From Tigriopus japonicus (lineage: Eukaryota; Arthropoda; Copepoda; Harpacticoida; Harpacticidae): DNA of 64,000 bases. This document shows, one piece after another, positions 24,858-60,985 of the stretch. The position numbers and the translations under genes were made by a program. The notes under the pieces are model-generated. The model did not search any database. It saw only the letters and a program-made list of their open reading frames with translations, and was not told the DNA's origin. The DNA lies in NCBI GenBank assembly GCA_010645155.1, contig CM021313.1, positions 3,794,010 to 3,858,009 of the forward strand, in the 5' to 3' direction. Position 1 is the first letter of the stretch, and each line of letters starts with the position of its first letter.

Positions 24858-25340
24858 AAAAATCATCTGCTAATTCATAAAGAATCCATGGAACACACGA
24901 GGAATGGAAAGCAAGGATGGGACAATAAGGCGGAAGGGATGACATGCATTTGCCCCCTGGATATTTGGAATCCAGAAAATCCAGAATAATTTGTAATGAT
25001 GAAAAAAAGCAAAAAAAAAATAATGGACAATTAAGGGCAAATGATACCACAGTCTTTGATTTTCAGAGCCATGCATTAATTGCTTATTATCTTCTTATGA
25101 GAAGATAAATTCAAATAATCATCTGCTAATTCATAAAGAATCCATGGAACACACGAGGAATGGAAAGCAAGGATGGGACAATAAGGCGGAAGGGATGACA
25201 TGCATTTGCCCCCTGGATATTTGGAATCCAGAAAATCCAGAAAGTGCCTTCTCGCCCACAATCCTGGACACTATTCTAAATAAATTGTAATGATGAAAAA
25301 AAGCAATAAAAGAAATAATGGACAATTAAGGGCAAATGAT
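24797..25340. repeat. Tandem duplication, ~256 bp unit
   Basis: The segment from gene C exon 2 (AGCCATGCATTAATTGC) through CATGGAACACACGAGGAATGG to GACAATTAAGGGCAAATGAT is repeated: AGAATCCATG at 24881 and 25137. The second unit has a ~35 bp extra piece (CTTCTCGCCCACAATCC...). Confidence 0.85.
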
Positions 25341-25439
25341 CCTACACTCAGGGAAAAACCCCGAGAGCGCTACGGCCATTGGTCATATGGGGAAAGGCAT
25401 GTTTTGCGTGTGCGGGACCCAAGCATCTAATGAAAGATT

Positions 25440-25632
25440 ATATAAGCTTTATCGAGCTACAATCCCAAAATATGAAGAGGGCATGGAAGAGCTGGAACAG
25501 GAGGTTGCCTACTGGTTTTGTGCCTTTAGATTTGGCATTTGCGATGAATGCACGTGTCAAAGGATCATGGAGTGTTGGGAGTGTGGACGAGTGCACAATA
25601 TGGATAATGATTTTGCCTTTTGGTTTTGCTGA
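25440..25632 (+). pseudogene. Gene B, divergent copy 2 (C-terminal part)
   Basis: The frame contains VAYWFCAFRFGICDECTC and MECWECGRVHNMD: all five cysteines and the histidine of the gene B pattern are kept, although most other residues differ from copy 1. No acidic N-terminus or start codon in context. It ends at TGA 25630-25632. The upstream part of the frame (from 25336) looks like unrelated sequence. Confidence 0.5.
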
Positions 25633-26340
25633 AGAAGACATGCTGGATGCTAGAAATCCAGTAGCGATCAGGTTTGAAAGACCACAGAAGAAATCTAGAC
25701 TTGGAAAAAAAAGAACAGGGAAAGGATTTTCGGCCAATCTTGGTTACTCTAGCGACATTGAAAGAACTGGAAACCAAACTAAACAGAATTAAACTTGGTC
25801 TTGTGAATCAGATGATAAAGATATCATTACAAAAACATGTGGAAGGAAGCTAACTGAAGAATCAAGGGATCAACTAATTTCCTTCAAGGCATGCTGAAAT
25901 GCTCTGCAAACTCCAGCTTCCTTTTCTCTTGGACACTGACAAACTGACTAATCAGGACAAGCCACTTGAGGTTAGAAAGTAGTCGGTTTCTAAGGTCGTC
26001 CTATACCAAAGGTGTAGACACAAAACTCTATTGGGACGGACGAGAAAAAGGCCAAAGTGTTGGGCACAATGGGTATTGGGGACCTCACTGGAGAGAAAGC
26101 AGTCATTCATGAACTGAAGACTGTTACTAATGTTGGTGTAAAGTTACTGGCTGGTTTGGACAGGGACAGACCAGAGAAAGTGATTGGCGACACTCAGTAG
26201 GAGATTATCAAGAACATCAAGACAGAGACCTTTACTCCTAAGAAGTCCCAAAGAGGCGATGATGTTAGGGGCTGCTAGAAAAAAAAGAATATAAAGAGAA
26301 TTCCATTCCTCACAAATATAAAGTATCTGTTTAAAAAAAT
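25633..26340. other. Unassigned, with one ORF remnant
   Basis: Around 26036-26278 a plus-strand frame reads KVLGTMGIGDLTGEKAVIHE, then GVKLLAGLDRDRPEKVIGD, one TAG, and then KNIKTETFTPKKSQRGDD to a TAG. Its composition looks coding, but I do not recognise it. It may be another Polinton gene fragment. Confidence 0.3.
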
Positions 26341-26964
26341 GGATTTATTTCATGTGGGAAAGTGCATGTTGAAGGATGGGATATCGAACATTGACCTTTA
26401 CGTCACTTGAGCGGGTTGCGTTAACAACCAACGCGCTTTCTGTAGTTGGGATATACACTTCTGATTTGTTAATCATTTTTAATTGACTTCATTTTTCAAT
26501 GACATGGAATTAAAAAATGTTGTTTGTCACTTCTTTTGAGGTTTCTTTGTTCATTCAAGTTTGTTGTGCACCTGCTTTTTTCAACATGTTGACATGTGTG
26601 AGTCATGCTTGGGAAGTTGTTGCGTCATCTCAATCGATTTTAAGCGATTGATAAATGTATTTGAGCAATGCAATCAAAAATTTTGTCTGTCAAAAGTACT
26701 TCTTTTGGTGTTTCTTTGTTCATTCATGTTTGTTGTACACCTGAGGCTAGTTTTTTAAGACGCAAAGATCGATCTTAAGATCGTACTTTAGTACTCTAAG
26801 TCCGATCTTGAGATCGATCTTTGCGCTTAAAAAACTAGCCTCTGCGTTTTCCGAAATCATGCCACATATGGGTAATTACATACCGGGCCGGAAATTGGGG
26901 GTTATAGTGTGCACTACCATAATTGGTTTAATTATAGGGGCCTCCAAAAGTTGGTGAATTACTT
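26341..26964 (+). repeat. Polinton-type right terminal region, copy 1 (subterminal repeats)
   Basis: Contains the GCGTTAACAACCAACGCGCTTTC block, then two ~165 bp units (TTCATTCAAGTTTGTTGTGCACC at ~26551, and again at ~26710), and CCGGGCCGGAAATTGGGGG near the end. It runs to GGTGAATTACT (26964). The last ~10 bp of the intact terminus (ATACTACT) are missing: at 26965 the sequence turns directly into gene B-related DNA. Confidence 0.7.
26743..26842. mobile_element. 100 bp hairpin insertion
   Basis: GAGGCTAGTTTTTTAAGACG... is almost perfectly complementary to ...GCGCTTAAAAAACTAGCCTC, giving ~47 bp arms and a tiny loop. It interrupts a subterminal repeat unit that elsewhere reads continuously (ACACCTGCTTTTTTC), so it is an insertion, probably a tiny foldback MITE. 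Confidence 0.8.
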
Positions 26965-26989
26965 TACAACTTTTGGTATTTATACCATC

Positions 26990-27165
26990 AATGTGTACCA
27001 TCACCACTGCCCGAAGAATGGGAGGAAGTGGAGCGGGAAGTTGCTTTGTGGTTCTGTGCATTAAGGTTCCATGTTTACACTGAGTGCAAGTGTCGGTACC
27101 TGAATGAATGTTGGGATTGTGACAACATACATGACACAAGGGATGAATGTATAAATTGAGAAAAT
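26990..27165 (+). pseudogene. Gene B fragment, copy 3
   Basis: The frame includes LPEEWEEVEREVALWFCALRF and then HVYTECKCRYLNECWDCDN, with all Cys and His positions kept, then stops (TGA 27157-27159). The N-terminal half is missing; what precedes it is the truncated terminus at 26964. Confidence 0.6.
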
Positions 27166-27390
27166 AAAAGTCATGTAAAGAAGAGAAAAATAAGATGTAT
27201 TGTAAAATGTATTTAACTTATTTCATTTCATGTGTGAAATGTAAAGGTGTAACTTGAGGGATTGTTGGGATATGGAACATTGTCCTTTTGGACACTTGCC
27301 ACATTGCGTTGACAAAACAATGCGCCTTCCGCAGTTTGGATATAATCTTCAGTTCATATACAAAAAATAATATAATATATAAATTTAATC
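27166..27390. repeat. Partial terminal-region block
   Basis: Contains TGTGAAATGTAAAGGTGTAACTTGAGGGATTG and CGTTGACAAAACAATGCGCCTTCCGC, the inner part of the Polinton terminal region also found at 26.34 and 32.65 kb, followed by an AT-rich join (TATAATATATAAATT) to the next gene B copy. Confidence 0.6.
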
Positions 27391-27620
27391 CCAAAATGAT
27401 GAGCCAGGAAGAGCGAAAGGAGTTCTATTGGATATTGTATTGATACCATCAACGTATACCATCACCACTACCCGAAGAATGGGAGGAAGTGGAGCGGGAA
27501 GTTGCTTGCTGGTTCTGTGCATTCAGGTTCCATGTTTACACTGAGTGCAAGTGTCGGCACCTAAATGAATGTTGGGACTGTGGCAATATACATGACACAA
27601 GGGATGAATGTATAAATTGA
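27391..27620 (+). pseudogene. Gene B fragment, copy 4
   Basis: Starts at NPKMMSQEERKEFYW and, after a frameshift, continues with VEREVACWFCAFRF and TECKCRHLNECWDCGNIHD. The Cys/His pattern is complete. No acidic N-terminus. Confidence 0.6.
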
Positions 27621-27889
27621 GAAAATAAAAGTCAAGTAAAAAAAGAAGATATGCCCGAGCAATGAGGCGAAAATTGGAATGGCAGCTCGATATTTCATTT
27701 TATCATATATTGGATCATTTTGATTTTCTGAGCCATGCATTAATTGCTTATTATCTTCTCTTGAGAAGGTAAATTCAACTTTTCATTTAAATAATCAACT
27801 GCCAATAAGGAGGATGGGATGACATGCATTTGCACCCTGGATATTTGGAATTAAGAACATTCCGAAAGTACCTTCTCTCCCACCTTCTC

Positions 27890-28194
27890 TCAACAACGAG
27901 GAACCAGCACACAACAACGAGGAGAACAACGGAAATGGGAATGACGAGGAAAAGTTTAATCCCAAAATGATGAGCGAAGAAGAGCGGAGGGAGTTCAATA
28001 GAATATGGTATTTATACCAGTGGCCAGTTCCAACACAACCTGAAGAACGGGAGGCTGTAGTAGTGAAACGGGAAGTTGTTTGGTGGTTCTGTGCATTCAG
28101 GTTCCATGTTTACACCGAGTGGAAGTGTCGGTACCTGAATGAATGTTGGGATTGTGACAACATACATGACATAAGAGATGGTTGTATTACATGA
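27890..28194 (+). pseudogene. Gene B, copy 5 (in first tandem unit)
   Basis: The frame runs through LNNEEPAHNNEENNG, MMSEEERREFNRIWYLYQWP and VWWFCAFRFHVYTEWKC to ECWDCDNIHDIRDG and TGA. One cysteine of copy 1 is Trp here (EWKC), so the metal-site pattern is damaged or tolerant at that place. It has no start before the acidic part; the N-terminal IITI segment is absent. Confidence 0.55.
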
Positions 28195-28464
28195 GGAAAA
28201 AAAGTCATGTAAAAAAAGAAGATATGCCCGAGCAATGAGGCGAAAATTGAAATGGCAGCTCGATATTTCATTTTATCATATATTGGATCATTATGATTTT
28301 CTGAGCCATGCATTAATTGCTTATTATCTTCTCTTGAGAAGGTAAATTCAACTTTTCATTTAAATAATCAACTGCCAATAAGGAGGATGGGATGACATGC
28401 ATTTGCACCCTGGATATTTGGAATCCAGAACATTCCGAAAGTATCTTCTCTCCCACCTTCTCTC

Positions 28465-28767
28465 AACAACGAGGAACCAGCACACAACAACGAGGAGAAC
28501 AACGGAAATGGGAATGACGAGGAAAAGTTTAATCCCAAAATGATGAGCGAAGAAGAGCGGAGGGAGTTCAATAGAATATGGTATTTATACCAGTGGCCGG
28601 TTCCAACACAACCTGAAGAACGGGAGGTCGTAGAAGTGGAACGAGAAGTTGCTTGCTGGTTCTGTGCATTCAGGTTCCATGTTTACACCGAGTGGAAGTG
28701 TCGGTACCTGAATGAATGTTGGGATTGTGACAACATACATGACATAAGAGATGGTTGTATTACATGA
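28465..28767 (+). pseudogene. Gene B, copy 6 (in second tandem unit)
   Basis: Almost identical to copy 5, including EWKC, but with the intact VEVEREVACWFCAFRF segment. Same truncated N-terminus fused to gene C-type spacer. Confidence 0.55.
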
Positions 28768-28969
28768 GGAAATGTTCCAAGTGTAAAATGAGGGGGCACA
28801 TAGTAATGCAATCAAAGCTGAACTGAGCATTTTTTGCAATCTTTTCTGATTTTGCAGCGCAAAGTCAATTCACATCTAGTTACATGAAAGACGCGGCATG
28901 TTTTTTTAATTGGTCCGACGATTGATGTTGAAACGGATCCCCACCAGCCTCGGCAAGACAACAGCTTTG

Positions 28970-29250
28970 GACAAACTAAAGTGCCTCAAATGTTGAAGTA
29001 TTGGTTGAAATTATTGATAAAATTCCTTTCAAATCGGCATGGACATCTAACTACTGAAAAGGTAATTCAGGCATGATGAATGCCAAAATTCATCAGAAAA
29101 AAAAACAGTAAAGTTCTATTTGGAGTTCCTAAATCAACATTTTAGGCACTTTAGTTTGTCCAAAACTGATGAATGACCGTTGCAATCTTCAAAAATATGT
29201 GTAGCATGGGAACTGCGAGCTGTTGCCGCGCACGAAATTCACTAAATGTT
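28970..29250. mobile_element. Truncated copy of the long-TIR foldback MITE (see 38216-38680)
   Basis: From TTTGGACAAACTAAAGTGCCTC through TAGCATGGGAACTGCGAGCTG to GAAATTCACTAAATG it matches the MITE at 38.2-38.7 kb. The outer ends (GCACTATAATAA) are missing on both sides. Confidence 0.75.
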
Positions 29251-29700
29251 TAAATAAGGGGAAAAATGTTTTTTTTTAAGGGAATGAACAGCAACGGTAA
29301 AAAAACAAGAATCGAAGAATCAAGGGATCAACTAAATCCCCACCCACTGAAAACGTGTGCTGTCTTTGGAGGAAAAAGGCAGTCCACGCCTAGTTAAGAC
29401 AAAGAAAAAAAATCAAAGGAAGTAAGTGGAGGAGAAGGGATCAAAAAAAAATTGCAAGACTCGCAAAAAATAACTAGCAAAAATGCACACTGAAAGCCTT
29501 AAAATTGATTATTGGAGAACAATTCGAGAAATTATGGAAATTGAAGTCTACATACAACTCAAGCAGACAACCTTCATTACAATAGAATTCATATTTCATG
29601 GGACTATTTTATCCTTCTTCACCTTCTTTGCAAATAAGTAGGTTTGCATAAACCATCAAAAAGTTATGAAACCATTATTCAGGTTGGGTGGTACATTCCA
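29251..29700. other. Non-coding, A-rich
   Basis: No ORF or repeat that I could assign. Confidence 0.4.
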
Positions 29701-29822
29701 AATGTTGCTTTGGCAAAAAAAATCGGGTCACATCCGGTTCAATTCAGGTTTAGGCCTCGACCCGGGTCCCGCAAGCCTATGAATATGATGGCATAACGAT
29801 TAAAGGAACGTGACATGAGGAA

Positions 29823-31270
29823 TTGGAACCGCCCAAGGAATTCACATTGAGCATGTCGGCCATGGATATGAAGCGTTTGTTTTCCAAGATTCTTGTGAAG
29901 CCGACCTTGCACGTCTCAAAAGGCGATATGCTGAACAATGAGGCAAAGAAAATTAACTGGGAAATGTGGATGAGAAATTCCTTTTTCCGTTTCGAGCACA
30001 TTCCTTTAAGGCTCACGTTGAAGATAACTGGAATCTAGAGTTGGCCAGCAGTTTTGACTCCTTGGCCGCCAAGAAGGAAGATTTCCATGAACAAGGGCCA
30101 TGTTGGAAAGTGGAACGGATCCCGTCGGTTCGAGTTGAAGTTATTCGTTGTCGCCCACTGGCAAGATCTTTCAACTTGCCGGTGGTGTCCAAGCCTGAGG
30201 ACTTTAAGAAAACGCGGATTCCAGTCAGTGGGCAAGCCTCCAACTACTGTTTTTATCTAGCCATTGGCACCCACTTTGTCAAGGACCTGGAATCCAGTGA
30301 CCTTCAGCTCTTTATCGATCTGAACATGAAGGGACTACAGGCCGACGATGTTGCGGTTGAAGTGCGAGATTGAACGATTTGAACGAATCAATCCGCATCT
30401 TTCATTGCGGATTAGTGTGCTGTATATGGATGGAGAAGACATTATTCCGATACGAGCTTCGCGAAATTTGAAAGGTAAAAATATCAACTTAATCTTATAT
30501 AAATGCTTGCACCTAAAACAAAGTGACTAGTCACTACACTTTAATTAATTCCCTCGACACATTTGTGAGGCGCACCTATCGTGCTGCCATGGGGGAAAAA
30601 CAATATGAAAAGTGTCAAACATGCCCCAAATGCTTGCATTCATTTTCGCGTGCTCATATCTTGGACAATCATGTGAAAGAATGTTGAAGGATTCAGTACG
30701 TTCAGTACTTGGTGAAAAAGTTTGAAGCAGCTCTTATCGTTTTTTTTTATGGGAAAGTTGTCCGACACCTCCTGCCAAAATGTGCTCGATAAAGTCTTGT
30801 CAACAGTCCAAATGTTTTCATAAAAGTCCATTTTTTCGTGAGGAGAAAGCCATGGCTTATTATTTCATTATTTTGGACTTTAACTATGACATTGTGCGGC
30901 AACGACATTATCATGGTTATGATTGTATTCAAGACTTGCAGAACACTTAGGTTAAGGCTCGAAAACGAGTCAATGAAATTTTTGCCAACATTGTTCCAGT
31001 GACTTTAACCAAGGAGGAAAGTCCTCAGTTTGAAAGTATCACAATGCGCCATATTTGTGAGGGGAAAGTAAAGAAAAAAAAGGATGATCACTTAGTTCGG
31101 GATCATTGCCGTCTCACTGGTAAATATCTGGGGGCAGCTCACAATTCTTGTAATTTAAATCGTCCCTAACAAAAAGTGGGTCATATTTATTGTCACAATT
31201 TTAGCGGTATGATTCCCATTTAGCAACTTGAGTTTGATCAAGATTTAAAATCAATTGAGGGATTGGCTCA
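29823..31270 (+). pseudogene. Polinton protein-primed DNA polymerase B remnant
   Basis: A chain of frames: 29823-30038 (PPKEFTLSMSAMD), 29966-30373 (RVEVIRCRPLARSFNLP, ASNYCFYLAIGTHF, FIDLNMKGLQ), 30348-30530 (FERINPHLSLRISVLY, then IRASRNLKGKNINLIL). A Cys/His motif follows at 30613-30687 (CPKCLHSFSRAHILDNH), and at ~31050-31160 HICEGK, then VRDHCRLTGKYLGAAHNSCN. This order, including the C2H2-like finger and the DH-LTGKY-GAAHN-CN block, is that of the N-terminal/exonuclease part of Polinton-type PolB. Several frameshifts and stops are present and the palm domain is absent. In an intact element the enzyme replicates the linear genome from a protein primer. Gene B and gene A follow directly. 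Confidence 0.75.
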
Positions 31271-31603
31271 CAAAACGGAAAGGCTAAGAACACTTCCAAA
31301 GTACGACTTCATCTTTTTCGACTTTTTTTTTTGTTTTGCACTGATCATTGGCTGGATTGGTTCAGGATTTGGCAAAATCTGAGGCTGAATTTAAAGTTTT
31401 GGATCAAATAGGTTTTGCTCTGGACAAGACTAAAAGGGAACTTTAACTTCGCAAAGGGGGTTTTCCTTAAGAGTTTGCGACCAACAACCAAGTAATCTTT
31501 CACCGCATGCCAGCCAAAAAATATCAACATCCCTTGAAATACACGCCCCAATTTCGCCGTACATATGCCTCTGGGAGAGGTCAGCGGATGATCCCATAGC
31601 CTT
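31271..31603. other. Promoter-side region of gene B, copy 7
   Basis: TGAAATACACGCCCCAATTTCGCCGTACATATGCCTCTGGG (in part) also occurs, inverted, upstream of gene B copy 1 (23890-23940). The conserved block may be the end of a preceding gene (frame RRTYASGRG) or a regulatory region. Confidence 0.4.
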
Positions 31604-31610
31604 TATATAA
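31604..31610 (+). promoter_or_regulatory. TATA box of gene B, copy 7
   Basis: CTTTATATAAAGAGG, 58 bp before ATG 31662. Confidence 0.65.
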
Positions 31611-31661
31611 AGAGGGTTTGAACCAGAAACGACTGTATCAGTAACATTACATTGCCCAAAC

Positions 31662-32157
31662 ATGCCTGCAAATGAAATCCCGATCATCACAATCAGTCAT
31701 GGTGAAGAAGAGGAACCAGTCCACAACAACGAGGAACCAGCACATGAAGATAAGGAGCATGAGTTTCAATTCCAATGGCGAAGAGGGGATGATGAAGAGG
31801 AACCAGACCTCAACATCAATGACAACAACGCCAACTACAGGAATGGTGAAAGGCAAGATGAAGAGGAAGACGGAAGTTCAATTCCAATGGCGATGAGGGG
31901 GTGATGAAGAGGAACCAGGCCACAACAATAACGAGGAGAACATCATTCCAGACATACGCGCAGAACCAGCACACAACAAAAAAACAAGGAACCAGCCCGC
32001 AACAGCGAGGAGAACAATGGGAGTGGGAATGACGAGGGAAAGGTTGATCCTTAGGCAATGAGCCCAGAAGAGCATCAGGAGTTCAATAGAACATGGTATT
32101 TATACCAGGGCCGTGTTCCAGCACTACCTGAAGAACGGGAGCCCGTGGTAGTGGAGG
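31662..32157 (+). pseudogene. Gene B, copy 7 (N-terminal part, Cys domain lost)
   Basis: MPANEIPIITISHGEEEEP repeats the start of copy 1: IITI core plus acids. It continues in an acidic, Asn-rich region with duplicated EEPAH/EEP units and a stop at 31902-31904. Pieces in another frame then reach TWYLYQGRVPALPEERE near 32090-32150. The sequence passes straight into the gene A upstream region at TGTTCATATGCACGTGAC, so the Cys-rich end has been deleted. With copies 3-6, which lack the N-terminus, it shows the two halves being lost separately. Confidence 0.6.
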
Positions 32158-32253
32158 TGTTCATATGCACGTGACGAGAGGAAGGAGAGATCCTTTAAAA
32201 AGACAAGAGTCTGTGCATGTGAACACGAGTATACTTCTGCTATTCATTGCATC

Positions 32254-32590
32254 ATGTTCCATCCACATCAAGTGACGTAGAGTCTGAGTATGAGGTATCT
32301 TCGTCTCAATCAAGTGATGGTAAGATTATTTCAAGTTTATAAGTAATCACTGATTGATGTAATAGTGTTTGGTTTTTATTTTTACAGCTGCTTTTCGAGC
32401 GGAAGTGCGATCTCTCAAAATGAGATATAGACAAGCGAAGGTGCGGATAATGGAAAGAGAAATTCTGAGCCTTCCGGAATATCAAAGACCGGGATATGCT
32501 CGAGACATTAGGCAACAAATTGAATGGGAACTCAATAACCTACCACTGGTAGTGTTATCAATCAGATTGAAGGAATTTAATGCAACTTGA
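32254..32590 (+). pseudogene. Gene A, copy 2 (exon 1 deletion)
   Basis: Exon 1 starts at ATG 32254, but a 22 bp deletion relative to copy 1 (after CATCAA) shifts the frame. The donor GTAAGATTATTTC, intron and acceptor TTTTACAG are conserved, and exon 2 (32388-32590) is nearly identical to copy 1, with a few changes in the RDIRQQIEWELNNLP core region. Upstream CACGTG and TTTAAAAAG (60 bp before the ATG) are kept. Probably non-functional, unless a downstream start is used. Confidence 0.65.
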
Positions 32591-32639
32591 ATGTATTAAT
32601 TTCTTTTCAAAATATATATTATCCTGATAAAAAGGTATT

Positions 32640-33021
32640 TCCTTCATTTCATGTGTGAAAGAAAGCTAGAAAGCTAAGGGTGAAACTTGAGGGATTTGAT
32701 ATGGACCATTGTCCTTTACGACACTTGAGTGGGTTGTGTTAGCAATCAACGCGCTTTCCGTAATTGGACTTCTGGTTTGTTATTAATTGTTTATTTGACA
32801 TCATTTTTCAATGACATAGATTTTAAAAAATTTGCCAGTCAAAAGTACTTCCTTGATGTTTCTTTGTTCATTCATGTTCGTTGTACACCTGCTTTTTTCG
32901 AAATAATGACACATGTGGGTAATTATATGCTTGGGAAGTTATTGCGTCATCTCATTCGATTTTAAGTGATTAATTTATCTATTTGACCTCCTGCAACCTG
33001 CTAGTGAATTACTATACTACT
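32640..33021 (+). repeat. Polinton-type right terminal region and terminus, copy 2
   Basis: Contains the GTGTTAGCAATCAACGCGCTTTCC block, one subterminal unit with TTCATTCATGTTCGTTGTACACC, and ends GTGAATTACTATACTACT, the inverse of AGTAGTATAGTAATTCAC at 56912. Flanked on the right by AATGAT. It closes the unit PolB - B - A. No left terminus with AATGAT is seen, so this element is truncated or rearranged on its left. Confidence 0.75.
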
Positions 33022-45706: not shown

Positions 45707-45712
45707 GATGAG

Positions 45713-46365
45713 AGTAGTATATGCATTCACTCGATTTTGGATGCCCCTAATCAATCAAGTAAATCATGCATAACCCCTAATTTCCGGCCCGGATGTAATG
45801 GCCTGATTTTGGAAAAAAAGCAGGTGCACAACAAATTTGAACAAAGAAAGGAAGACAAAAGTTTAAATTGCACAGCTCAAAATACGTACAATTAAAAAAA
45901 TAATGACTCAAATACATGAATCATTTAAAATGTAATGAGATGACGTAATAATTTCCCAGGGATGACTCATCATCATGTGGAAAAAGAAGCAGGTGCGCAA
46001 CAAACATGGAATGAACAAAGGAACCTCAAAGGAAGTGGCAGGCAACATTTTTAATTGCATTTAAACAAATAGACTAATTAATCACTTAATATCTATTGAG
46101 ATGAAGCAACAACTTCCCAAGCATGACCCACATGTATCATCATTTTGAAAAAGCAAGTGTGCAACAAGCATGAATGAACAAAGAAACATCACTAGAAGTA
46201 CTTTTGACATGCAACATTTTTTAATTGCATTTAAACAAATAGACTAATTAATAACTTAAAATTTATTGCGGACAATTAAAATTGATTAACAAATCAAAAG
46301 TTTATAACCAAACTGCGGAAAGCGTGTTGGTTGCTAACGCAACCTGTTCATCGTAACGGAAGAAG
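45713..46365. repeat. Subterminal ~165 bp repeats, left arm
   Basis: Three units marked by GCAGGTGCACAACAAAT, GCAGGTGCGCAACAAACATGG and GCAAGTGTGCAACAAGCATG (45822, 45990, 46153), then GGTTGCTAACGCAACCTG. Mirrored at 52738-53390. Confidence 0.85.
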
Positions 46366-46688
46366 CACCGACAAGGTGAACAATATTCTTAACATGCACT
46401 CAGGATAAACATGCACAGGAAGTAAATCTTTGAAACAATGGTAATTTGTTGGTGATAGAAGAGCAACAAAAGTCTTTATAGTAGAAATAAACCACAAATA
46501 AAAAATGAAAAGGTATTTTTTGCAATGAACATTTCAAATTTTATTTCGTGTGATTAACAAATAAGTTTATCCTTGCTGGGAATAATTCGGAAACACACTG
46601 TTTTTATGTCAACACAATCCATTCACAGCAACTTTGAATGTGTCAAAACGGCGTCATGTGTATTGAAATCAAAATAGTACATGAAATT

Positions 46689-46961
46689 TCATTTATATTT
46701 TCGCAATTTGTATGTAAGCACTTCCAATGGCAGCTTCTTGAGCTGCCATTCCAATTTTCGCATCGTCCCCCAGGCATATCTTCTTTTAAAACGAGTGACG
46801 TCACCTTTACAAGAACCTTGAAAATACAAGTGAACAATGTTACATCAACCATTCATCATTTGTAAACTTGAACTAATCTTACCAAAATGTGATTGACACG
46901 GAGATGTTCCATGCGCAGACTTTGAACTTTTCTTGATGCGCTTTTGAGTTGGAGACAACAT
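46689..46961 (-). CDS. Gene A, copy 3 left arm (two exons)
   Basis: Mirror image of the right-arm copy: exon 1 46961-46883, intron 46882-46817, exon 2 46816-46689, 68 residues. It differs from the right arm at one codon (Ala in place of Val in RRYAWGTMRKLEW), and the Ala agrees with the RYA/GYA of the other copies. Same promoter layout as there. The reading frame is complete. Confidence 0.55.
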
Positions 46962-48289
46962 GATTTGACTAATAACAGAAGTATACTCTTATTCATGTGC
47001 ACAGACTCTTGTCTTTTTATGATCTCTCCTTCACTCTGACACTGCAAAATGTTAAAATGTTTTATTTCCATTTACCTTTGAATGGAAGAAGCGTGTTTGA
47101 ACAATATTTCAATCCAATTCCCACAGTGGGCAATGAACTTCATGGATCATAATCAAGGTTAGCAGACACAGGAAGCCATGAATATTTACTTGAAATGCTC
47201 TGAATTTGAGTTTTGATTGAAGATCATCAATCATTTCCAAAACATATTTAAACAGAGTGGATGTCAAGTACTAAAACTACCAAAGTTATAGATGAAACAA
47301 GTGATTAAATCGGAATTATGTTATGTGATAACCCTCAACTGTGAAAAATCAAGCAAACACCAAGTTTGCAGGTGTTTCCCTGTTTGAAAAGCACCTCCAC
47401 TAATGAAGAAAACCCACCACTCTTCACAAATGCTTACCAATTCGTCTTTTTCCTCACTTTGACTACTTTGCACATGCCCTTTTCCATATGTGCACACCCG
47501 CTTTTGTTCAGCTAAGTTGAAAGTAGAGAGTTTGACAATAAGATTCTTTACCTAAAAGTTTAAAGATATTTCTATGTAAAAGAAGCCAGCTAAAGCCCAC
47601 TACCATGTGAATGAGTAAGACGACAAAACCAAAGCCTTACTGTAGGTTGTTTATAGAGTACAGACCATGGCAAGTGGTAGCTGCAGTAGTGGTAAGCCAA
47701 GGCAGACGCAAAAGAAGGTTGAGGAGAGTAATTGAGAGCTGCACCACATAGATATTGGCGCAAGACATGTGGATACCCGCTCAAGGAAGGACACCTCTGT
47801 TGGGGACAGTCATGTACTTGCAACTGAGAATGAATCTCATGTACATACTTGTACGTATGTGTATTTACATGTGCGCAATAGCTTCATTTCTCTATTTCCA
47901 TTACCGAGTTCTGGCACCGAAGCATGCACAAGTATGGAAGTCTCCCTCGCATTATGTGTGGACCAAGCCATCTCTTTAGCAATTGTATACCTATATTGAT
48001 AGAAGGAGTACTTTCAAGGTAGACATCTCTTACTAGGGAAACCGGGCAATGATCTCTGACAGGCCAAGATGGCAAAACAGACGAGCACATATCCTACATT
48101 GCGCACAAAAGTAGACCTCCCATGTCAGATGGTAGCACTATATGATTCGGGGCAAGTGCGATAGGAGGTTAAGGAGAGTGGTTAAAAGTTGTTCACCATA
48201 GATGTAGATACAAAGCGTCTATTAATCAAATCAAAGAGCGCTTGTAATGGTAATGAATATAGCTAAATTTATCTTGTAGGGAGTTCAAA

Positions 48290-49440
48290 GCCTTGATAAC
48301 TTCTTTCCTTTCAAATGGTCTAAAGGTGAATCCATCAACAATTTGCCCACGTTTTTCCCAATATTTCGATAGGTCCAATCATACCAGGTTTTATTTTTGA
48401 CTTGATAGATGTCAATTTGTTTTCAAAGAAGGATGCAAGCTCTTCAGATGTTTTTCTTGGAATCAGTCAGTACCTGATCTTCAACCATGATGCAGCTTGA
48501 GCCACTATTTGCTTGCTTTTTTTGGTGTGTGCCTTGTTGATGGTATTCCAAACATTTTTACTGTACATGCCTTCTTTGGCTTGCCTTCTTGTTTCTCTTC
48601 CAACTCAATTCACACAACAATTTCTCGATTTTCAAAGCATTTACAAAGAGCATCTTTCTCGATCCTAACGGCAGCATCACATTCTCTTTTTGGAGAGTCT
48701 CTTTCTTGCAACACTGCTTTTGTATCCTCACTGAAAGCTCTTTTATAGGATGAGGGAATAGCAAAAGCGCACCCTGGTGGGTGCTTATCAAGCACCCGAT
48801 TGACATTTTTTTCTATGAATTTACCCATAAAGTCCGTGTCAGTATCCCAACAAAGATAATGACACGGAATTCCCCAAAGATCTGTTAAAAGTTGTCTTTT
48901 CTCATCTGTTTGTAGCATCTTTTCGCAATCCACTTCTTTGATTTTGATGCATCCAATTTCCTCCATGGAATTGTAGCCACAAGAAGACAATGGTGACTCA
49001 CAGCGCTTTGGAGTTTATAAGTTTTCAAGCAAAGATTTGGACCGCAACATATGTGGTCTATGGTTGAATGACAAGTCTCATCTTGATCTCGCCTTTCTTC
49101 AAATGTGTGCTGAACTCCTGTCTCCACAAGGTCACAGACCCGTCACTAGAGTCAATTACCCGCCACAGAGACATCAAATGATGATTGTCACCTTCAATTC
49201 TCTTTACGTTCAAGTTCATGTCTACACCCATAATTATGAGCTTGCCTTCACTCACTGCTACTCTTTCCATTTGAGGAACTGGCTCAAATGCTTAGGCACA
49301 TGTTGTTTTACAGACACCCCACTCCACCCACCCACGGTAGAACACTGCAAAGAGAACCTTTTTGTCCCTATTTTGTAATCCCTCTAACTGGATAAGCGGG
49401 AGATACTTGTCCATAAGGTTGTCTCTCAGTCTAAACCTAC
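48290..49440 (-). pseudogene. Non-LTR endonuclease/RT-linker fragment, left arm
   Basis: Mirror of 49660-50810 in the right arm; see that entry. Same frameshifts in both arms, so the fragment decayed before the arms were duplicated. Confidence 0.65.
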
Positions 49441-49524
49441 ACTGCAATTAAAGCTTTTGAGTACTGTCACCCTCGCTTTGTTGGTTTTTGTTCTTGCGAA
49501 AAACATGCCAAAACCGGCGTTTTT

Positions 49525-49578
49525 TCAAATCTTAATTTTTTCCAGGATAAAATTCAAAATCCGTGAAATGTGTTTGCC
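49525..49578. other. Spacer (loop) of the foldback element
   Basis: 54 bp, AT-rich, between the inverted arms. The innermost arm sequence ACATGCCAAAACCGGCG is itself perfectly mirrored. A single strand could form a 3.8 kb hairpin. Confidence 0.85.
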
Positions 49579-49659
49579 AAAAACGCCGGTTTTGGCATGT
49601 TTTTCGCAAGAACAAAAACCAACAAAGCGAGGGTGACAGTACTCAAAAGCTTTAATTGC

Positions 49660-50810
49660 AGTGTAGGTTTAGACTGAGAGACAACCTTATGGACAAGTAT
49701 CTCCCGCTTATCCAGTTAGAGGGATTACAAAATAGGGACAAAAAGGTTCTCTTTGCAGTGTTCTACCGTGGGTGGGTGGAGTGGGGTGTCTGTAAAACAA
49801 CATGTGCCTAAGCATTTGAGCCAGTTCCTCAAATGGAAAGAGTAGCAGTGAGTGAAGGCAAGCTCATAATTATGGGTGTAGACATGAACTTGAACGTAAA
49901 GAGAATTGAAGGTGACAATCATCATTTGATGTCTCTGTGGCGGGTAATTGACTCTAGTGACGGGTCTGTGACCTTGTGGAGACAGGAGTTCAGCACACAT
50001 TTGAAGAAAGGCGAGATCAAGATGAGACTTGTCATTCAACCATAGACCACATATGTTGCGGTCCAAATCTTTGCTTGAAAACTTATAAACTCCAAAGCGC
50101 TGTGAGTCACCATTGTCTTCTTGTGGCTACAATTCCATGGAGGAAATTGGATGCATCAAAATCAAAGAAGTGGATTGCGAAAAGATGCTACAAACAGATG
50201 AGAAAAGACAACTTTTAACAGATCTTTGGGGAATTCCGTGTCATTATCTTTGTTGGGATACTGACACGGACTTTATGGGTAAATTCATAGAAAAAAATGT
50301 CAATCGGGTGCTTGATAAGCACCCACCAGGGTGCGCTTTTGCTATTCCCTCATCCTATAAAAGAGCTTTCAGTGAGGATACAAAAGCAGTGTTGCAAGAA
50401 AGAGACTCTCCAAAAAGAGAATGTGATGCTGCCGTTAGGATCGAGAAAGATGCTCTTTGTAAATGCTTTGAAAATCGAGAAATTGTTGTGTGAATTGAGT
50501 TGGAAGAGAAACAAGAAGGCAAGCCAAAGAAGGCATGTACAGTAAAAATGTTTGGAATACCATCAACAAGGCACACACCAAAAAAAGCAAGCAAATAGTG
50601 GCTCAAGCTGCATCATGGTTGAAGATCAGGTACTGACTGATTCCAAGAAAAACATCTGAAGAGCTTGCATCCTTCTTTGAAAACAAATTGACATCTATCA
50701 AGTCAAAAATAAAACCTGGTATGATTGGACCTATCGAAATATTGGGAAAAACGTGGGCAAATTGTTGATGGATTCACCTTTAGACCATTTGAAAGGAAAG
50801 AAGTTATCAA
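49660..50810 (+). pseudogene. Non-LTR endonuclease/RT-linker fragment, right arm
   Basis: Frames 49833-50045 (GKLIIMGVDMNLNVKRIEG, then VTLWRQEFSTHL) and 49976-50218 (CHSTIDHICCGPNL and AVSHHCLLVATIPW) give the C-terminal half of an APE endonuclease: the DMN, ...IDHI... and S-x-HC blocks. Later frames (50113-50545) are the charged linker before RT (FAIPSSYKRAFSED), and ISEELASFFENKLTSIKSKIK-like sequence near 50650-50710 leads toward RT, which is missing. Several frameshifts. It is an old insertion carried inside the Polinton-derived arm. Confidence 0.65.
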
Positions 50811-50849
50811 GGCTTTGAACTCCCTACAAGATAAATTTAGCTATATTCA

Positions 50850-52080
50850 TTACCATTACAAGCGCTCTTTGATTTGATTAATAGACGCTTTGTATCTACA
50901 TCTATGGTGAACAACTTTTAACCACTCTCCTTAACCTCCTATCGCACTTGCCCCGAATCATATAGTGCTACCATCTGACATGGGAGGTCTACTTTTGTGC
51001 GCAATGTAGGATATGTGCTCGTCTGTTTTGCCATCTTGGCCTGTCAGAGATCATTGCCCGGTTTCCCTAGTAAGAGATGTCTACCTTGAAAGTACTCCTT
51101 CTATCAATATAGGTATACAATTGCTAAAGAGATGGCTTGGTCCACACATAATGCGAGGGAGACTTCCATACTTGTGCATGCTTCGGTGCCAGAACTCGGT
51201 AATGGAAATAGAGAAATGAAGCTATTGCGCACATGTAAATACACATACGTACAAGTATGTACATGAGATTCATTCTCAGTTGCAAGTACATGACTGTCCC
51301 CAACAGAGGTGTCCTTCCTTGAGCGGGTATCCACATGTCTTGCGCCAATATCTATGTGGTGCAGCTCTCAATTACTCTCCTCAACCTTCTTTTGCGTCTG
51401 CCTTGGCTTACCACTACTGCAGCTACCACTTGCCATGGTCTGTACTCTATAAACAACCTACAGTAAGGCTTTGGTTTTGTCGTCTTACTCATTCACATGG
51501 TAGTGGGCTTTAGCTGGCTTCTTTTACATAGAAATATCTTTAAACTTTTAGGTAAAGAATCTTATTGTCAAACTCTCTACTTTCAACTTAGCTGAACAAA
51601 AGCGGGTGTGCACATATGGAAAAGGGCATGTGCAAAGTAGTCAAAGTGAGGAAAAAGACGAATTGGTAAGCATTTGTGAAGAGTGGTGGGTTTTCTTCAT
51701 TAGTGGAGGTGCTTTTCAAACGAGAAAACACCTGCAAACTTGGTGTTTGATTGATTTTTCACAGTTGAGGGTTATCACATAACATAATTCCGATTTAATC
51801 ACTTGTTTCATCAATAACTTTGGTAGTTTTAGTATTTGACATCCACTCTGTTTAAATATGTTTTGGAAATGATTGATGATCTTCAATCAAAACTCAAATT
51901 CAGAGCATTTCAAGTAAATATTCATGGCTTCCTGTGTCTGCTAACCTTGATTATGATCCATGAAGTTCATTGCCCACTGTGGGAATTGGATTGAAATATT
52001 GTTCAAACACGCTTCTTCCATTCAAAGGTAAATGGAAATAAAACATTTTAACATTTTGCAGTGTCAGAGTGAAGGAGAGA
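50850..52080. other. Unassigned arm sequence
   Basis: Shared with 58535-59545 in the second element. It contains two related segments (ACCACTCTCCTTAACCTCC at 50929 and TTACTCTCCTCAACCTTC at 51371) and short ORFs without motifs (for example 51280-51513). A conserved part of these elements, but no gene can be supported. Confidence 0.4.
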
Positions 52081-52081
52081 T

Positions 52082-52090
52082 CATAAAAAG
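52082..52090 (+). promoter_or_regulatory. TATA-like box of gene A, right arm
   Basis: CATAAAAAGACAAGAG, 60 bp before ATG 52142, in sequence otherwise similar to the region before copy 1 (GGAGAGAT...). Confidence 0.6.
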
Positions 52091-52141
52091 ACAAGAGTCT
52101 GTGCACATGAATAAGAGTATACTTCTGTTATTAGTCAAATC

Positions 52142-52414
52142 ATGTTGTCTCCAACTCAAAAGCGCATCAAGAAAAGTTCAAAGTCTGCGCATGGAACATC
52201 TCCGTGTCAATCACATTTTGGTAAGATTAGTTCAAGTTTACAAATGATGAATGGTTGATGTAACATTGTTCACTTGTATTTTCAAGGTTCTTGTAAAGGT
52301 GACGTCACTCGTTTTAAAAGAAGATATGTCTGGGGGACGATGCGAAAATTGGAATGGCAGCTCAAGAAGCTGCCATTGGAAGTGCTTACATACAAATTGC
52401 GAAAATATAAATGA
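52142..52414 (+). CDS. Gene A, copy 3 right arm (two exons)
   Basis: Exon 1 52142-52220 (MLSPTQKRIKKSSKS..., basic rather than acidic), intron 52221-52286 (GTAAGATTAG...TTTTCAAG, 66 bp), exon 2 52287-52414; 68 residues. Exon 2 has RRYVWGTMRKLEWQLKKLP, then EVLTYKLRKYK and stop. Intron position and phase are the same as in copy 1, and the core motif is preserved although the flanks have diverged strongly. This supports a real spliced gene kept under selection in different element lineages. Because it lies in the inverted arm, each element has two, in opposite orientation. Confidence 0.58.
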
Positions 52415-52737
52415 AATTTCATGTACTATTTTGATTTCAATACACATGACGCCGTTTTGACACATTCAAAGTTGCTGTGAATGGATTGTGTTGACATAAA
52501 AACAGTGTGTTTCCGAATTATTCCCAGCAAGGATAAACTTATTTGTTAATCACACGAAATAAAATTTGAAATGTTCATTGCAAAAATTACCTTTTCATTT
52601 TTTATTTGTGGTTTATTTCTACTATAAAGACTTTTGTTGCTCTTCTATCACCAACAAATTACCATTGTTTCAAAGATTTACTTCCTGTGCATGTTTATCC
52701 TGAGTGCATGTTAAGAATATTGTTCACCTTGTCGGTG

Positions 52738-53390
52738 CTTCTTCCGTTACGATGAACAGGTTGCGTTAGCAACCAACACGCTTTCCGCAGTTTGGTTATA
52801 AACTTTTGATTTGTTAATCAATTTTAATTGTCCGCAATAAATTTTAAGTTATTAATTAGTCTATTTGTTTAAATGCAATTAAAAAATGTTGCATGTCAAA
52901 AGTACTTCTAGTGATGTTTCTTTGTTCATTCATGCTTGTTGCACACTTGCTTTTTCAAAATGATGATACATGTGGGTCATGCTTGGGAAGTTGTTGCTTC
53001 ATCTCAATAGATATTAAGTGATTAATTAGTCTATTTGTTTAAATGCAATTAAAAATGTTGCCTGCCACTTCCTTTGAGGTTCCTTTGTTCATTCCATGTT
53101 TGTTGCGCACCTGCTTCTTTTTCCACATGATGATGAGTCATCCCTGGGAAATTATTACGTCATCTCATTACATTTTAAATGATTCATGTATTTGAGTCAT
53201 TATTTTTTTAATTGTACGTATTTTGAGCTGTGCAATTTAAACTTTTGTCTTCCTTTCTTTGTTCAAATTTGTTGTGCACCTGCTTTTTTTCCAAAATCAG
53301 GCCATTACATCCGGGCCGGAAATTAGGGGTTATGCATGATTTACTTGATTGATTAGGGGCATCCAAAATCGAGTGAATGCATATACTACT
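52738..53390. repeat. Subterminal repeats and terminus, right arm
   Basis: Mirror of 45713-46365. Units marked by TGTTCATTCATGCTTGTTGCACAC, TTCCATGTTTGTTGCGCACC and TTCAAATTTGTTGTGCACC; CCGGGCCGGAAATTAGGGG near the end; terminus GCATATACTACT. Confidence 0.85.
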
Positions 53391-53574
53391 GATGAGTTTA
53401 ATCAAACGAATTCAGTTGGGGAGAGTCGAGACTAACACACCTCCAAAAACTTAACGAAAATTCTCGGGCCTAATTGGCATTCTTCGTTTTGGCAATCAAT
53501 CGAAAAGAAAAGGAGGAAATCGAAGTAGTTGAGGTTCCAAGCTTCCATGTTAAATTTATCTTAATTCAATGTGT
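53391..53574. other. Flank
   Basis: Starts with the GATGAG duplication. No gene. Confidence 0.4.
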
Positions 53575-56911: not shown

Positions 56912-58110
56912 AGTAGTATAGTAATTCACCAGATTTTGGAGGCCCCTAATCAATCAAGTTAATCATACACACAATAACCCCTAATTTCCGGTCCGGCATG
57001 TAATTACCCACAGGTGGCATGATTTTGAAAAAAAAACAGGTGTACAACAAACATGAATGAACAAAGAAACCTCAAAAGAAGTGATAGACAACAGTTTAAA
57101 TTGCATTTAAACAAATAGATCAATCACTTAAAATCTATTGAGATGATGCAATAACTTCCCATGCATGACTCATCATCATGTGGGAAAGAGCAGGTGCGCA
57201 AAAAACGTGAATGAACAAAGAAACCTCAAAAGAAGTACTTTAGAATCAGGTATATCTGTAATTGCATTTCTGAAATAAATTAATCCATCACTTAAAATCT
57301 ATTGAGTTGACACACTAACTTCCCAGGCATGACATTTTTCACACAAGTGACATAATTTCGAAAAAAGCAGGTGTACCACAAACATGAATGGACAAAGAAA
57401 CAAGAAAAGAATTGCATTTAAACAAATAGATTAATCACTTAAAATCTTTTGAGATGGCGCAATAATTTCCCATGCATGAAATGACTCACATGTGACATGA
57501 TTTCGAAAAAAAGCAGGTGTACAACAAACGAATGATTAAAGAAACCTCAAAAGTAGTGAAATGCTGCATTTTTTATTTGCTTTGCTCAAATAATTTAAAC
57601 ACTTTAAATATATTGAGATGACACTACAACTTCCCATGCATGACTCGTCATCATGTTGAAAAAGAGCAGGTGCGCAACAAACGTGAATGAACAAAGAAAC
57701 CTCAAGGAAGTACTTTTGACATGCAACACTTTTTTAAATTGCATATCATTTAAACAAATAGATTAATCAATCACTTAAAATCTAATGAGATGACGCAATA
57801 ACTTCCCAGGCATGACCCACATGTGTCAACATTTTGAAAACAAAGCAGATGCGCAACAAACATGAATGAACAAAGAAACCTCAAAAGAAGCACTTTTGAC
57901 GTGCAACATTTTTTTAAATTGCATGTTATCTAAAAATGATGCATTTAAAAAATGATTAGCAAATAAGTAGTTTATTACCTAACTGCAAAAAGGGCAATGG
58001 TTGTCAACGCAACCTGCTCAAGTGTTGGAAAGCTCGACTTTGGATATCCCCACTCCTTCAACCTAAACTTTTACCTGTAGGCATAACCTTTCACACATGA
58101 ATGTGTGTCA
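56912..58110. repeat. Left terminus with six subterminal repeats
   Basis: Units marked by GCAGGTGTACAACAAAC-type sequence at about 57033, 57190, 57367, 57514, 57666 and 57845 (147-179 bp apart), then GTTGTCAACGCAACCTGC and a CCTTCAACCTAAACTTT block. Confidence 0.85.
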
Positions 58111-58534
58111 TGTCAGGTTGTATTCTGTCGCAAGTGGAATTGGACAGTCCATGACAAGAGGTGCCATGCGAATTAACTCAATCCATGTTGGGTTTGCGGA
58201 ATTAAGCACAAAAATTGATATGATTCGAGCAACAATTGACAATTGAATGTACCATCAGGTTATTGATTCGTCTTTTTGTCTTATGAGTCAATGCAATTTT
58301 TATTTTTCATGGTCAATGATTTGGTAAACGAAAGTTACCTATTCCCTTGGAAAAGAAAAAAGGCTCCTAACAGCGATATCTCGTCCCAGCTGTTCTGGGA
58401 GGGAAACTCCCTTACTTGTGGGAAGCCTAGCATCAGAACTTGGAAATGAAAACTCAAATGAACACATTGAACGCAAATACAGGCTTGGTTTATGTATGAA
58501 CAGAGAGTCCTTGCTCAGTGACAACAACATATTC
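58111..58534. other. Unassigned interior
   Basis: No recognisable gene; the minus-strand ORF 58339-58545 has no motif. Confidence 0.35.
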
Positions 58535-59545
58535 AATACCATCACAAGCGCTCTTTGATTTGATTAATAGGCGCTCTGTATCTACATCTATGGTGAGCGG
58601 CTTTTAACCACTCTCCTTAACCTCTTACCGTACTTGTCTTGAATCATTGTTGCAAATGCTACCACTTGACATGGGGTCTACTTTTGTGTGCAATGTAAGA
58701 TATGAGACCCTCCGTTTTGCCATCTTCACCTGTCAGGGATCATTGGTCAGTTTTGCTAGTGAGAGAGCCTTGAAAGTGCTCCTTCTACCAACATAGGTTT
58801 AACATTACTAAAGAGGTGGCTTGGTCCACACATAATGCGAGGGAGACTTCCATACTTGTGCATGCTTCTGTGCCAGAACTCGGAAATGGAAATAGAGAAA
58901 TGAAGCCATTGCGCACATGTAAATACACATACGTGCAATTATGTACATGAGATTCATTCTCAGTTGCAAGTACATGACTGTCCCCCACAGAGGTGTCCTT
59001 CTTTGAGCGGGTATCCACATGCCTTGCGCCTATATCTACGTATGTGGTACAGCTCTCAATTACTCTCCTCAACCTTATTTTGCGTCTGCCTCGGCTTACC
59101 ACTACTGCAACAACCACTTGCCGTGGTTTGTACTCTATAAACAACCTAGAGCAAGGCTTTGGTTTTGTCGTCTTACTCATTCACATGGCAGTGGGCTTTA
59201 GCTGGCTTCTTCTACATAGAAATATCTTTAAACTTTTAGGTAAAGAATCCTGTTGTCAAACTCTCTACTTTCAACTTAGCTGAACAAAAGCGGGTGTGCA
59301 CATATGGAAAAAGGGCATGTGCAAAGTAGTCAAAGTGAGGAAAAAGACGAATTGGTAAGCATTTGTGAAGAGTGGTGGGTTTTCTTCATTAGTGGAGGTG
59401 CTTTTCAAACAGGGAAGCACCTGCAAACTTGGTGTTTGCTTGATTTTTCACAGTTGAGGGTTATCACATAACATAATTCCGATTTAATCACTTGTTTCAT
59501 CTATAACTTTGGTAGTTTTAGTACTTGACATCCACTCTGTTTAAA
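58535..59545. repeat. Third copy of the foldback-arm sequence
   Basis: Matches 50855-51855 with scattered substitutions and small indels (for example ACGTATGTGG at 59039). No gene supported within it. Confidence 0.85.
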
Positions 59546-60117
59546 NNNNNNNNNNNNNNNNNNNNNNNNNNNNNNNNNNNNNNNNNNNNNNNNNNNNNNN
59601 NNNNNNNNNNNNNNNNNNNNNNNNNNNNNNNNNNNNNNNNNNNNNNNNNNNNNNNNNNNNNNNNNNNNNNNNNNNNNNNNNNNNNNNNNNNNNNNNNNNN
59701 NNNNNNNNNNNNNNNNNNNNNNNNNNNNNNNNNNNNNNNNNNNNNNNNNNNNNNNNNNNNNNNNNNNNNNNNNNNNNNNNNNNNNNNNNNNNNNNNNNNN
59801 NNNNNNNNNNNNNNNNNNNNNNNNNNNNNNNNNNNNNNNNNNNNNNNNNNNNNNNNNNNNNNNNNNNNNNNNNNNNNNNNNNNNNNNNNNNNNNNNNNNN
59901 NNNNNNNNNNNNNNNNNNNNNNNNNNNNNNNNNNNNNNNNNNNNNNNNNNNNNNNNNNNNNNNNNNNNNNNNNNNNNNNNNNNNNNNNNNNNNNNNNNNN
60001 NNNNNNNNNNNNNNNNNNNNNNNNNNNNNNNNNNNNNNNNNNNNNNNNNNNNNNNNNNNNNNNNNNNNNNNNNNNNNNNNNNNNNNNNNNNNNNNNNNNN
60101 NNNNNNNNNNNNNNNNN
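59546..60117. other. Assembly gap (N)
   Basis: 572 undetermined bases. From the arm copies the gap should hold the promoter, exon 1 and intron of a gene A copy. Confidence 0.99.
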
Positions 60118-60181
60118 GGAATGGCAGCTCAAGAAGCTGCCATTGGAAGTGCTTACATACAAATTGCGAAAATATAAATGA
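60118..60181 (+). CDS. Gene A, copy 4 (last 20 codons, rest in gap)
   Basis: Frame EWQLKKLPLEVLTYKLRKYK and stop, identical at protein level to the end of copy 3. Partial only because of the gap. Confidence 0.6.
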
Positions 60182-60499
60182 AATTTCATGTACTATTTTG
60201 ATTTCAATACACATGACGCCGTTTTGATACATTCAAAGTTGCTGTGAATGGATTGTGTTGACATAAAAACAGTGTGTTTCCGAATTATTCCCAGCAAGGA
60301 TAAACTTATTTGTTAATCACACGAAATAAAATTTGAAATGTTCATTGTAAAAATTACCTTTTCGTTTTTTATTTGTGGTTTATTTCTACTATAAAGACTT
60401 TTGTTGCTCTTCTATCACCAACAAATTGCCATTGTTTCAAAGATTTACTTCCTGTGCATGTTTATCCTGAGTGCATGTTAAGAATATTGTTCACCTTGT

Positions 60500-60985
60500 C
60501 GGTGCTTCTTTCGTTACGATGAACAGTTTGCATTAGCAACCAACACGCTTTCCGCAGTTTGGATATAAACTTTTGATTTGTTAATCATTTTTTATTGTTA
60601 TCATTTTTCAATGACACGGAATTAAAAAATGTTGTCTGTCACTTCTTTTGAGGTTTCTTTGTTCATTCACGTTTGTTGCGCTTCTTTTGAGGTTTCTTTG
60701 TTCATTTACATTTGTTGCGCACCTGCTTCTTTTTCAACATGGTGATTAGCCATGGCTGGGAAATTATTGTGTCATCTCAATAGATTTTGAGTGATTAATG
60801 TATTTGAGTGATGCAATTCAAACAATTGTCTTTCACTTCTTTGTTCAAATTTGTTGTCCACCTGCTTTTTTTCCAAAATCAGGCCACCTGTGGGTCATTA
60901 CACACTGGGCCGGAAATTAGGTGTTATGCATGTTTCATTTGATTGATTAGATCGAGTCGAAAATCGGGTGAATCTATATACTACT
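60500..60985. repeat. Right terminus with subterminal repeats
   Basis: CATTAGCAACCAACACGCTTTCC block, then units with TTCATTCACGTTTGTTGCGC, TTCATTTACATTTGTTGCGCACC and TTCAAATTTGTTGTCCACC, GGGCCGGAAATTAGG, and the terminus TATATACTACT. Confidence 0.83.

Follow-up and report, generated by a model that had tools for sequence, protein, structure and literature searches.

The window analysed here is a stretch of 64,000 nucleotides from the copepod Tigriopus japonicus (assembly GCA_010645155.1, contig CM021313.1, positions 3,794,010 to 3,858,009 of the forward strand), which corresponds to C10:3794010-3858009 in the host genome set used throughout (G000; 194.9 Mb in 158 contigs). Within it lies a giant hairpin of 7.7 kb, in which two arms of 3812 bp, each the inverted copy of the other, surround an asymmetric spacer of 54 bp, the whole being bounded on either side by the hexamer GATGAG (Table 1). 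The arms are 99.79% identical, with no indel and eight mismatches, and their paired coordinates add up to 99103 along the entire element; the lengths of arms and spacer, the flanking hexamer, the absence of indels and the coordinate sum had been given in an earlier reading of the sequence (the original prediction), together with at least eight substitutions between the arms, and were borne out on re-examination. An inverted repeat of 3812 bp at 99.8% identity is beyond chance. The mismatches (positions 46516, 46774, 47268, 47290, 47353, 47378, 47380 and 47381) are unevenly placed, with six of the eight lying within 114 bp (47268 to 47381). No open reading frame (ORF) of at least 150 amino acids (aa) is present in the element (45713-53390), and a scan of the window with Rfam returned no match.

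When joined, the flanks of the hairpin (45691-45712 with 53391-53402) form a 16-bp tandem repeat, from which a further GATGAG derives about 20 bp to the left; the reading of GATGAG as a 6-bp target duplication is unaffected by this repeat. Perfect inverted repeats are a familiar class of artefact, and a fold-back read introduced during assembly or library preparation might be suspected at this locus. Given that the outer flanks are unlike each other and carry a target duplication, that the spacer is asymmetric, that the arms differ at eight positions and that four other loci share this centre, an empty site having been found for a sister hairpin besides, we regard such an origin as scarcely credible, and the window hairpin is a genuine mobile element. 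Tandem repeats of 15/30 bp also occur on both sides of it (43792-44035 and 56246-56401), inverted relative to each other.

Table 1. Features of the hairpin, of other Polinton-related DNA in the window and of one related locus (window coordinates unless stated)
Feature	Position	Strand	Details
Left target-site duplication, GATGAG	45707..45712	.	Window sequence and 15-element survey
(AGT)2 terminal motif	45713..45718	+	As in vertebrate Mavericks; kind of repeat linked to jumping-back initiation (PMC8097293)
Left arm of giant hairpin, 3812 bp	45713..49524	+	8 mismatches to right arm
Terminal variable modules	45721..45748	+	Block A ATGCATT, then CAC, block B TCGA, TTTT, block C GGATGCCCCT
Diverged sub-repeats within terminal inverted repeat	45810..46268	+	Sequence comparison
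Polymerase-flank piece, arm 1465-1655	47177..47367	+	95.9% to C105 element (L061)
Deletion junction, arm 2548|2549	48260..48261	.	Mirrored at 50842/50843
Relic, read from the centre outward, non-LTR-retroelement-like by eye	48261..49524	-	Arm 2549-3812; mirrored at 49579-50842
Asymmetric 54-bp spacer (centre)	49525..49578	.	100% identical in C9, C15, C19 and C41 copies
Right arm of giant hairpin	49579..53390	-	Inverted copy of left arm
Mirrored terminal modules	53355..53382	-	Identical to left end
(ACT)2 terminal motif	53385..53390	-	As for left (AGT)2 motif
Right target-site duplication, GATGAG	53391..53396	.	Window sequence and 15-element survey
Second family element, 4074 bp	56912..60985	+	C10:3850921; duplication CACAAT, unlike ends, partly N
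Degenerate Polinton remains	20832..33021	+	Parts in the next five rows
TBP fragment	20832-20918		Within degenerate Polinton remains
Capsid-like ORF (weak)	22053-22838		DJR-like_dom, E 0.096, below cut-off
Protease-like ORF	22844-23314		Motifs by eye only
Polymerase-gene remnant	29987-31481		65-72% to L061
AGTAGT terminus AGTAGTATAGTAATTCAC	33021	minus	End of degenerate Polinton remains
TBP and TFIIB-like ORFs of L061	4974-5888 and 5762-6520	minus	Coordinates within L061 (C105:37001-46000)

The hairpin belongs to a family that is dispersed through the genome. A search with the arm gave 129 matches, and 40 of 111 candidates were scored, so that the counts reported here are lower bounds; the terminal pattern AGTAGTATN{5,7}CACNNNNTTTT matched the genome 96 times, compared with twice for a reversed control. 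Hairpins with an identical centre and near-complete arms were found on C9 (L022), C15 (L020) and C19 (L021), and the copy on C41 (L009/L010) shares the centre and has one long and one short arm, the latter agreeing with the window arm at 99.9% over 110-3812. Related centres (93%) occur on C1 (L024, with arms of 1959 bp) and C58 (L023). The arms of the sister hairpins L020, L021, L022 and L024 are 99.7-99.95% identical, the end repeats of L014 (879 bp) and L025 (1010 bp) are 100% identical, and end-repeat length ranges across the family from 53 bp, in a copy shortened by N, to 3905 bp. The spacer together with 145 bp of arm (199 bp in all) is 100% identical in the C9, C10, C15, C19 and C41 copies, whose flanks differ. 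Since an identical centre is found in four other copies, the window element seems to spread as a hairpin, rather than having been folded in place.

The original prediction had called for other loci at which the same ends are flanked by 6-bp duplications, and these exist. In the 15 elements for which both flanks were in hand, the target duplication is perfect in 12, the window copy included, and matches at five of six bases in the remaining three. Flanks swapped between 13 of these elements matched at five of six bases in only 6 of 156 pairs and at all six in none. Comparison with an unoccupied site, which had also been suggested, succeeded for the sister hairpin L024, whose joined flanks match four unfilled copies of the target (on C8, C2, C3 and C34) across the junction at 88-96% identity; owing to small indels, the empty copies exceed the matched stretch of the join by 5-17 bp. 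The target is a repeated host sequence, retroelement-like by eye. That the joined flanks match empty targets indicates that the hairpin was inserted as a unit with a single 6-bp duplication.

The ends of these elements point to a relationship with Polintons. Vertebrate Mavericks have ends that are mostly 5'-(AGT)2//(ACT)2-3', 6-bp duplications in the intact copies and inverted repeats of 46-1447 bp, and the repeats at their ends have been tied to jumping-back initiation (PMC8097293). The hairpin family begins AGTAGT and finishes ACTACT, so that both the duplication and the inverted ends of the Polinton/Maverick type are present, and the original prediction of Polinton-type termini, which agree with this Maverick signature (PMC8097293), was upheld. 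Its further claim, that the whole element is made of inverted terminus, does not hold in that form. The arm holds no Polinton gene and is instead a mosaic, in which a terminus with diverged sub-repeats (about 1-560) is followed by more family DNA, by the segments 1465-1655 and 1813-2548, by the junction 2548|2549 and by the relic DNA of 2549-3812. The first of these segments links the arm to a polymerase-bearing element, as these 190 bp are 95.9% identical to DNA lying about 0.4 kb upstream of a polymerase ORF on C105. With Polinton ends and duplication, no coding capacity and DNA in common with such an element, the hairpin has the make-up of a non-autonomous Polinton derivative. At the junction, longer relatives (L009/L010, L011, L014, L015/L016, L017 and L027) hold about 3.6-6 kb of extra DNA, which includes retroelement relics by eye; Pfam scans of three pieces of L011 returned no retroelement domain. 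Because the deletion is shared by both arms, it must either predate the present palindrome or have been copied across it.

Family-B polymerase genes lie beside related ends. The Pfam model DNA_pol_B_2 gave six matches in this genome, against zero in the 14 genomes used as controls. Two of the six are found about 1.8 kb inside two ends at C105 that match the terminal pattern exactly; another, interrupted by one stop, is on C19, about 1.9 kb inward of an end with 84% identity. The C105 ORF scores 2.7e-18 with Pfam and 3.3e-19 with the PHROG DNA polymerase family. On C26, an AGTAGT end is followed about 2.2 kb further in by a copy of the capsid-like/protease-like pair of the window, and on C11 (L063) an ORF with an integrase core (rve, 1.6e-12) is accompanied by a weak chromo-domain ORF, below cut-off, and shares a 16-kb region with capsid-like, TBP-like and polymerase matches. 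One might nevertheless suppose that the hairpins form a separate superfamily of DNA transposons, with 6-bp duplications and a transposase of their own, next to which Polinton genes have inserted by chance. The element itself has no gene, no terminus fitting the pattern accompanies the integrase locus on C11, and genome searches with PF21738 (capsid-type) and PF00770 (adenovirus-protease) were empty, a result that is uninformative given that the control searches were empty likewise. Set against this, polymerase ORFs stand just inside such ends on both sides of C105 and on C19, the capsid/protease-like pair does so on C26, the arm itself holds DNA from near a polymerase gene, and the end motif agrees with that of published Mavericks (PMC8097293). 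We therefore consider a separate superfamily quite improbable.

The C105 locus (C105:36529-54401; L043, L061, L062 and L044) represents a second type of palindrome, of 17.9 kb. Its arms (37037-44571 and 46360-53899) are 97.6-97.8% identical in two long blocks and are separated by about 1.8 kb of unlike DNA, and a polymerase ORF of 1257 aa is open on both. On the left arm, which was the one scanned, the polymerase is followed by an ORF for a TFIIB-like zinc ribbon (below cut-off at E 6e-5, with no match among solved structures) and by a TBP ORF (Pfam TBP, 3.2e-11), of which the right arm carries a copy at 96%. The Polinton lineage of L061 has a TATA-binding-protein (TBP) gene of its own and a TFIIB-like ORF adjoining its polymerase; TBP matches were obtained from C105 (two), C12, C76, C11 and C32 in addition to the fragment in the window. 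The original prediction had proposed a search for a full Polinton with the same ends. Family-B polymerase genes do lie beside related ends on C105 and C19; C105 could not be accepted as a full 17.9-kb Polinton, as each half has its own polymerase ORF, the two in opposite orientation, the outer ends differ and no duplication is present. This sixteenth element, whose flanks do not match, stands outside the set of 15, and its differing outer ends, together with flanks that have no common duplication, point to a possible fusion of two elements.

The window contains degenerate Polinton remains of its own (Table 1). The capsid-like ORF found there had no match in Pfam at 0.01, in NCBIfam or in PHROGs; no relative was confirmed in a scan of viral contigs (0 of 17 pattern matches), and single-sequence folding gave no usable model (pLDDT 36). 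Beside these remains is a small repeated ORF (MSEEERREFNRIWYLYQWPVP...CWFCAF; 23359-23796, 27823-28191 and 28396-28764), which is also present at L017:586-1047. A segment at 19804-20367 bears a weak likeness to a baculovirus-type envelope protein (Baculo_F, 3.6e-4, below cut-off) and comes, perhaps, from an env-bearing retroelement.

The extreme ends of the family have an unexpected make-up. Their outermost 30 bp or so are composed of modules of 4-11 bp, three of which, with few alternatives each, stand behind AGTAGTAT, and these are shuffled between copies yet mostly matched within one copy. Modules A and B are alike at both ends in 20 of 25 facing end pairs (less than 20 kb apart, not every pair being proven to be a single element), where 2.6% would be expected if copies were random; ends are unlike in five pairs, those at C8:11705080, C10:3850921 (the second element of the window), C19:576937, C58 and C105. 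Within the outermost 60 bp, identity between an element's own two ends is complete in 12 of the 14 elements compared, whilst the median difference from other copies is 17-47%; in this comparison L020 and L028 tie with each other, and the small, partly N elements L042 and L049, outside the 14, have identical readable ends. The exceptions are C105, which lacks a duplication, and the second element of the window. In C41, C6, L020 and L031 agreement between the two ends covers the outer 115-230 bp (with two substitutions in C41 and one in C6), the inner DNA being unlike. That own ends are identical while copies differ suggests that an end variant entering one arm also comes to be in the other. Full independence of modules A and B was rejected (mutual information of 1.06 bits against 0.71 +/- 0.08 when shuffled, with 0 of 2000 shuffles as high). 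Four-gamete counts, restricted to ends whose locus includes 60 bp of flank and whose C block precedes AATCA (38 ends, which collapse to 27), were 4 for A-B, 8 for B-C and 4 for A-C, and such new combinations of modules a few bases apart speak for recombination or repeated change. We know of no process that explains both the recombination of modules between copies and their matching within copies.

In our view the window element is probably a giant palindrome derived from a Polinton/Maverick, non-autonomous and dependent on a helper, with fold-back replication equalising its two arms. We infer this mechanism from a family that is mobile and palindromic, whose ends are of the Polinton type and match within a copy, whose arms are nearly identical and of which a sister copy was precisely inserted. 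A linear, protein-capped copy would be replicated in trans by the polymerase and terminal protein of full Polintons, and the displaced single strand of the palindrome would fold back to form a hairpin with a ready-made duplex origin at its open end. Copying round the loop would rebuild the full palindrome and make the arms identical or, after mismatch repair, keep them so. The Polinton integrase would then insert the linear form with a 6-bp duplication; integration in trans, as originally predicted, is supported by inference of this kind, and such palindromes would act as defective, helper-dependent genomes.

The main rival to this is chromosomal template switching with gene conversion, in which a switch at a short inverted repeat, during replication or repair of an inserted Polinton, creates the fold-back, conversion keeps the arms alike and the integrase merely moves the palindrome. 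The centre does sit at a short inverted repeat, GCGTTTTTT...AAAAACGC, which allows template switching anywhere, the spread of end-repeat lengths resembles that of fold-back elements, and the cluster of six arm differences is like a single conversion tract. What counts against a chromosomal origin is that 12 of the 14 elements, asymmetric ones with unlike inner DNA included, have the same 60 bp at both ends, and matched ends even in asymmetric elements suggest that equalisation occurred at or before insertion; we consider this explanation unlikely. Copy-back as the origin of the hairpin, which the original prediction had inferred, can be retained in modified form: the window copy is probably no fresh product, as four copies share its centre, and the event, either during protein-primed replication or in the chromosome, is better placed further back in the family.

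Several observations weigh against helper-dependent fold-back replication of the hairpins. The matching of ends fades inward, with own ends being nearest relatives at 150 bp in 11 of the 14 and at 350 bp in 8, and the second element of the window has a duplication yet unlike ends, the sole duplication-bearing exception among the 14. The unlike outer ends of C105, with no target duplication, and the lack of a terminus within the search pattern at C11, the clearest integrase locus, also belong here. A search of solved-structure sequences matched, in the best 60 of 62 hits, only the N-terminal zinc fingers of the C105 polymerase, and its protein-primed nature is presumed by us from membership of the family DNA_pol_B_2. 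A search among the relatives for an unfolded parent of the centre found none; L014 was rejected in this role, given that it and the other one-armed relatives L017, L033 and L034 can all equally be deletion products of a hairpin. Finally, the identity of the arms could also be explained by chromosomal gene conversion or very recent insertion, and both replication and transposition of the hairpins are deduced from sequence.

A wider proposal, which we put forward tentatively and hold to be possible rather than probable, is that the hairpins are an inherited record of palindromic defective Polinton genomes. Polintons would replicate extrachromosomally as linear protein-primed DNA, palindromes would win since their displaced strands fold into origin-bearing duplexes, and the matched modules would constitute an end-pairing code. 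Under such a code, only linear molecules with the same modules at both ends would be efficiently replicated or integrated, and whole ends would be exchanged among families before being copied to the opposite side. To our knowledge, Polinton replication has so far been inferred from genes and never observed, and integrated palindromes with equalised ends may therefore offer an indirect readout of a replication intermediate, making a protein-primed extrachromosomal model testable. If this is true, Polintons would seem to breed their own defective parasites, as viruses do, and the matched terminal modules raise the question of how two ends are recognised.

A Polinton family that is both non-autonomous and palindromic, and whose modular ends match, appears to be new, and its novelty is unproven: no palindromic Polintons, or Polintons with TBP, were recognisable by title or abstract start in the literature searched, from which subscription journals were mostly absent. 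With Polintons and Mavericks the family has in common its (AGT)2//(ACT)2 ends, 6-bp duplications, long inverted repeats and relatives with DNA_pol_B_2 beside related ends; it departs from them in that the window element has no Polinton gene, is inverted repeat over nearly all of its 7.7 kb, and has terminal modules that are shuffled between copies. The palindromic hAT-derived miniature inverted-repeat transposable elements of Atlantic cod (PMC12368964) are likewise non-autonomous and internally inverted, but differ in their hAT ancestry and in end repeats of about 600 bp. Fold-back elements such as Drosophila FB and Galileo have very long inverted repeats with internal sub-repeats and little or no coding sequence, and resemble the hairpins in all these respects. 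The target duplication of Galileo and the P superfamily is 7-8 bp, however, whereas that of the hairpin family is 6 bp and is combined with the Polinton end motif. Palindromic defective genomes of protein-primed replicons are known among the derivatives of yeast linear plasmids and were reportedly described by Daniell in 1976 for the DNA of incomplete adenovirus particles. The hairpins are like these in that one terminus is duplicated in inverted form and in that a polymerase would be needed in trans, and they differ in being known here as integrated copies in a eukaryotic genome.

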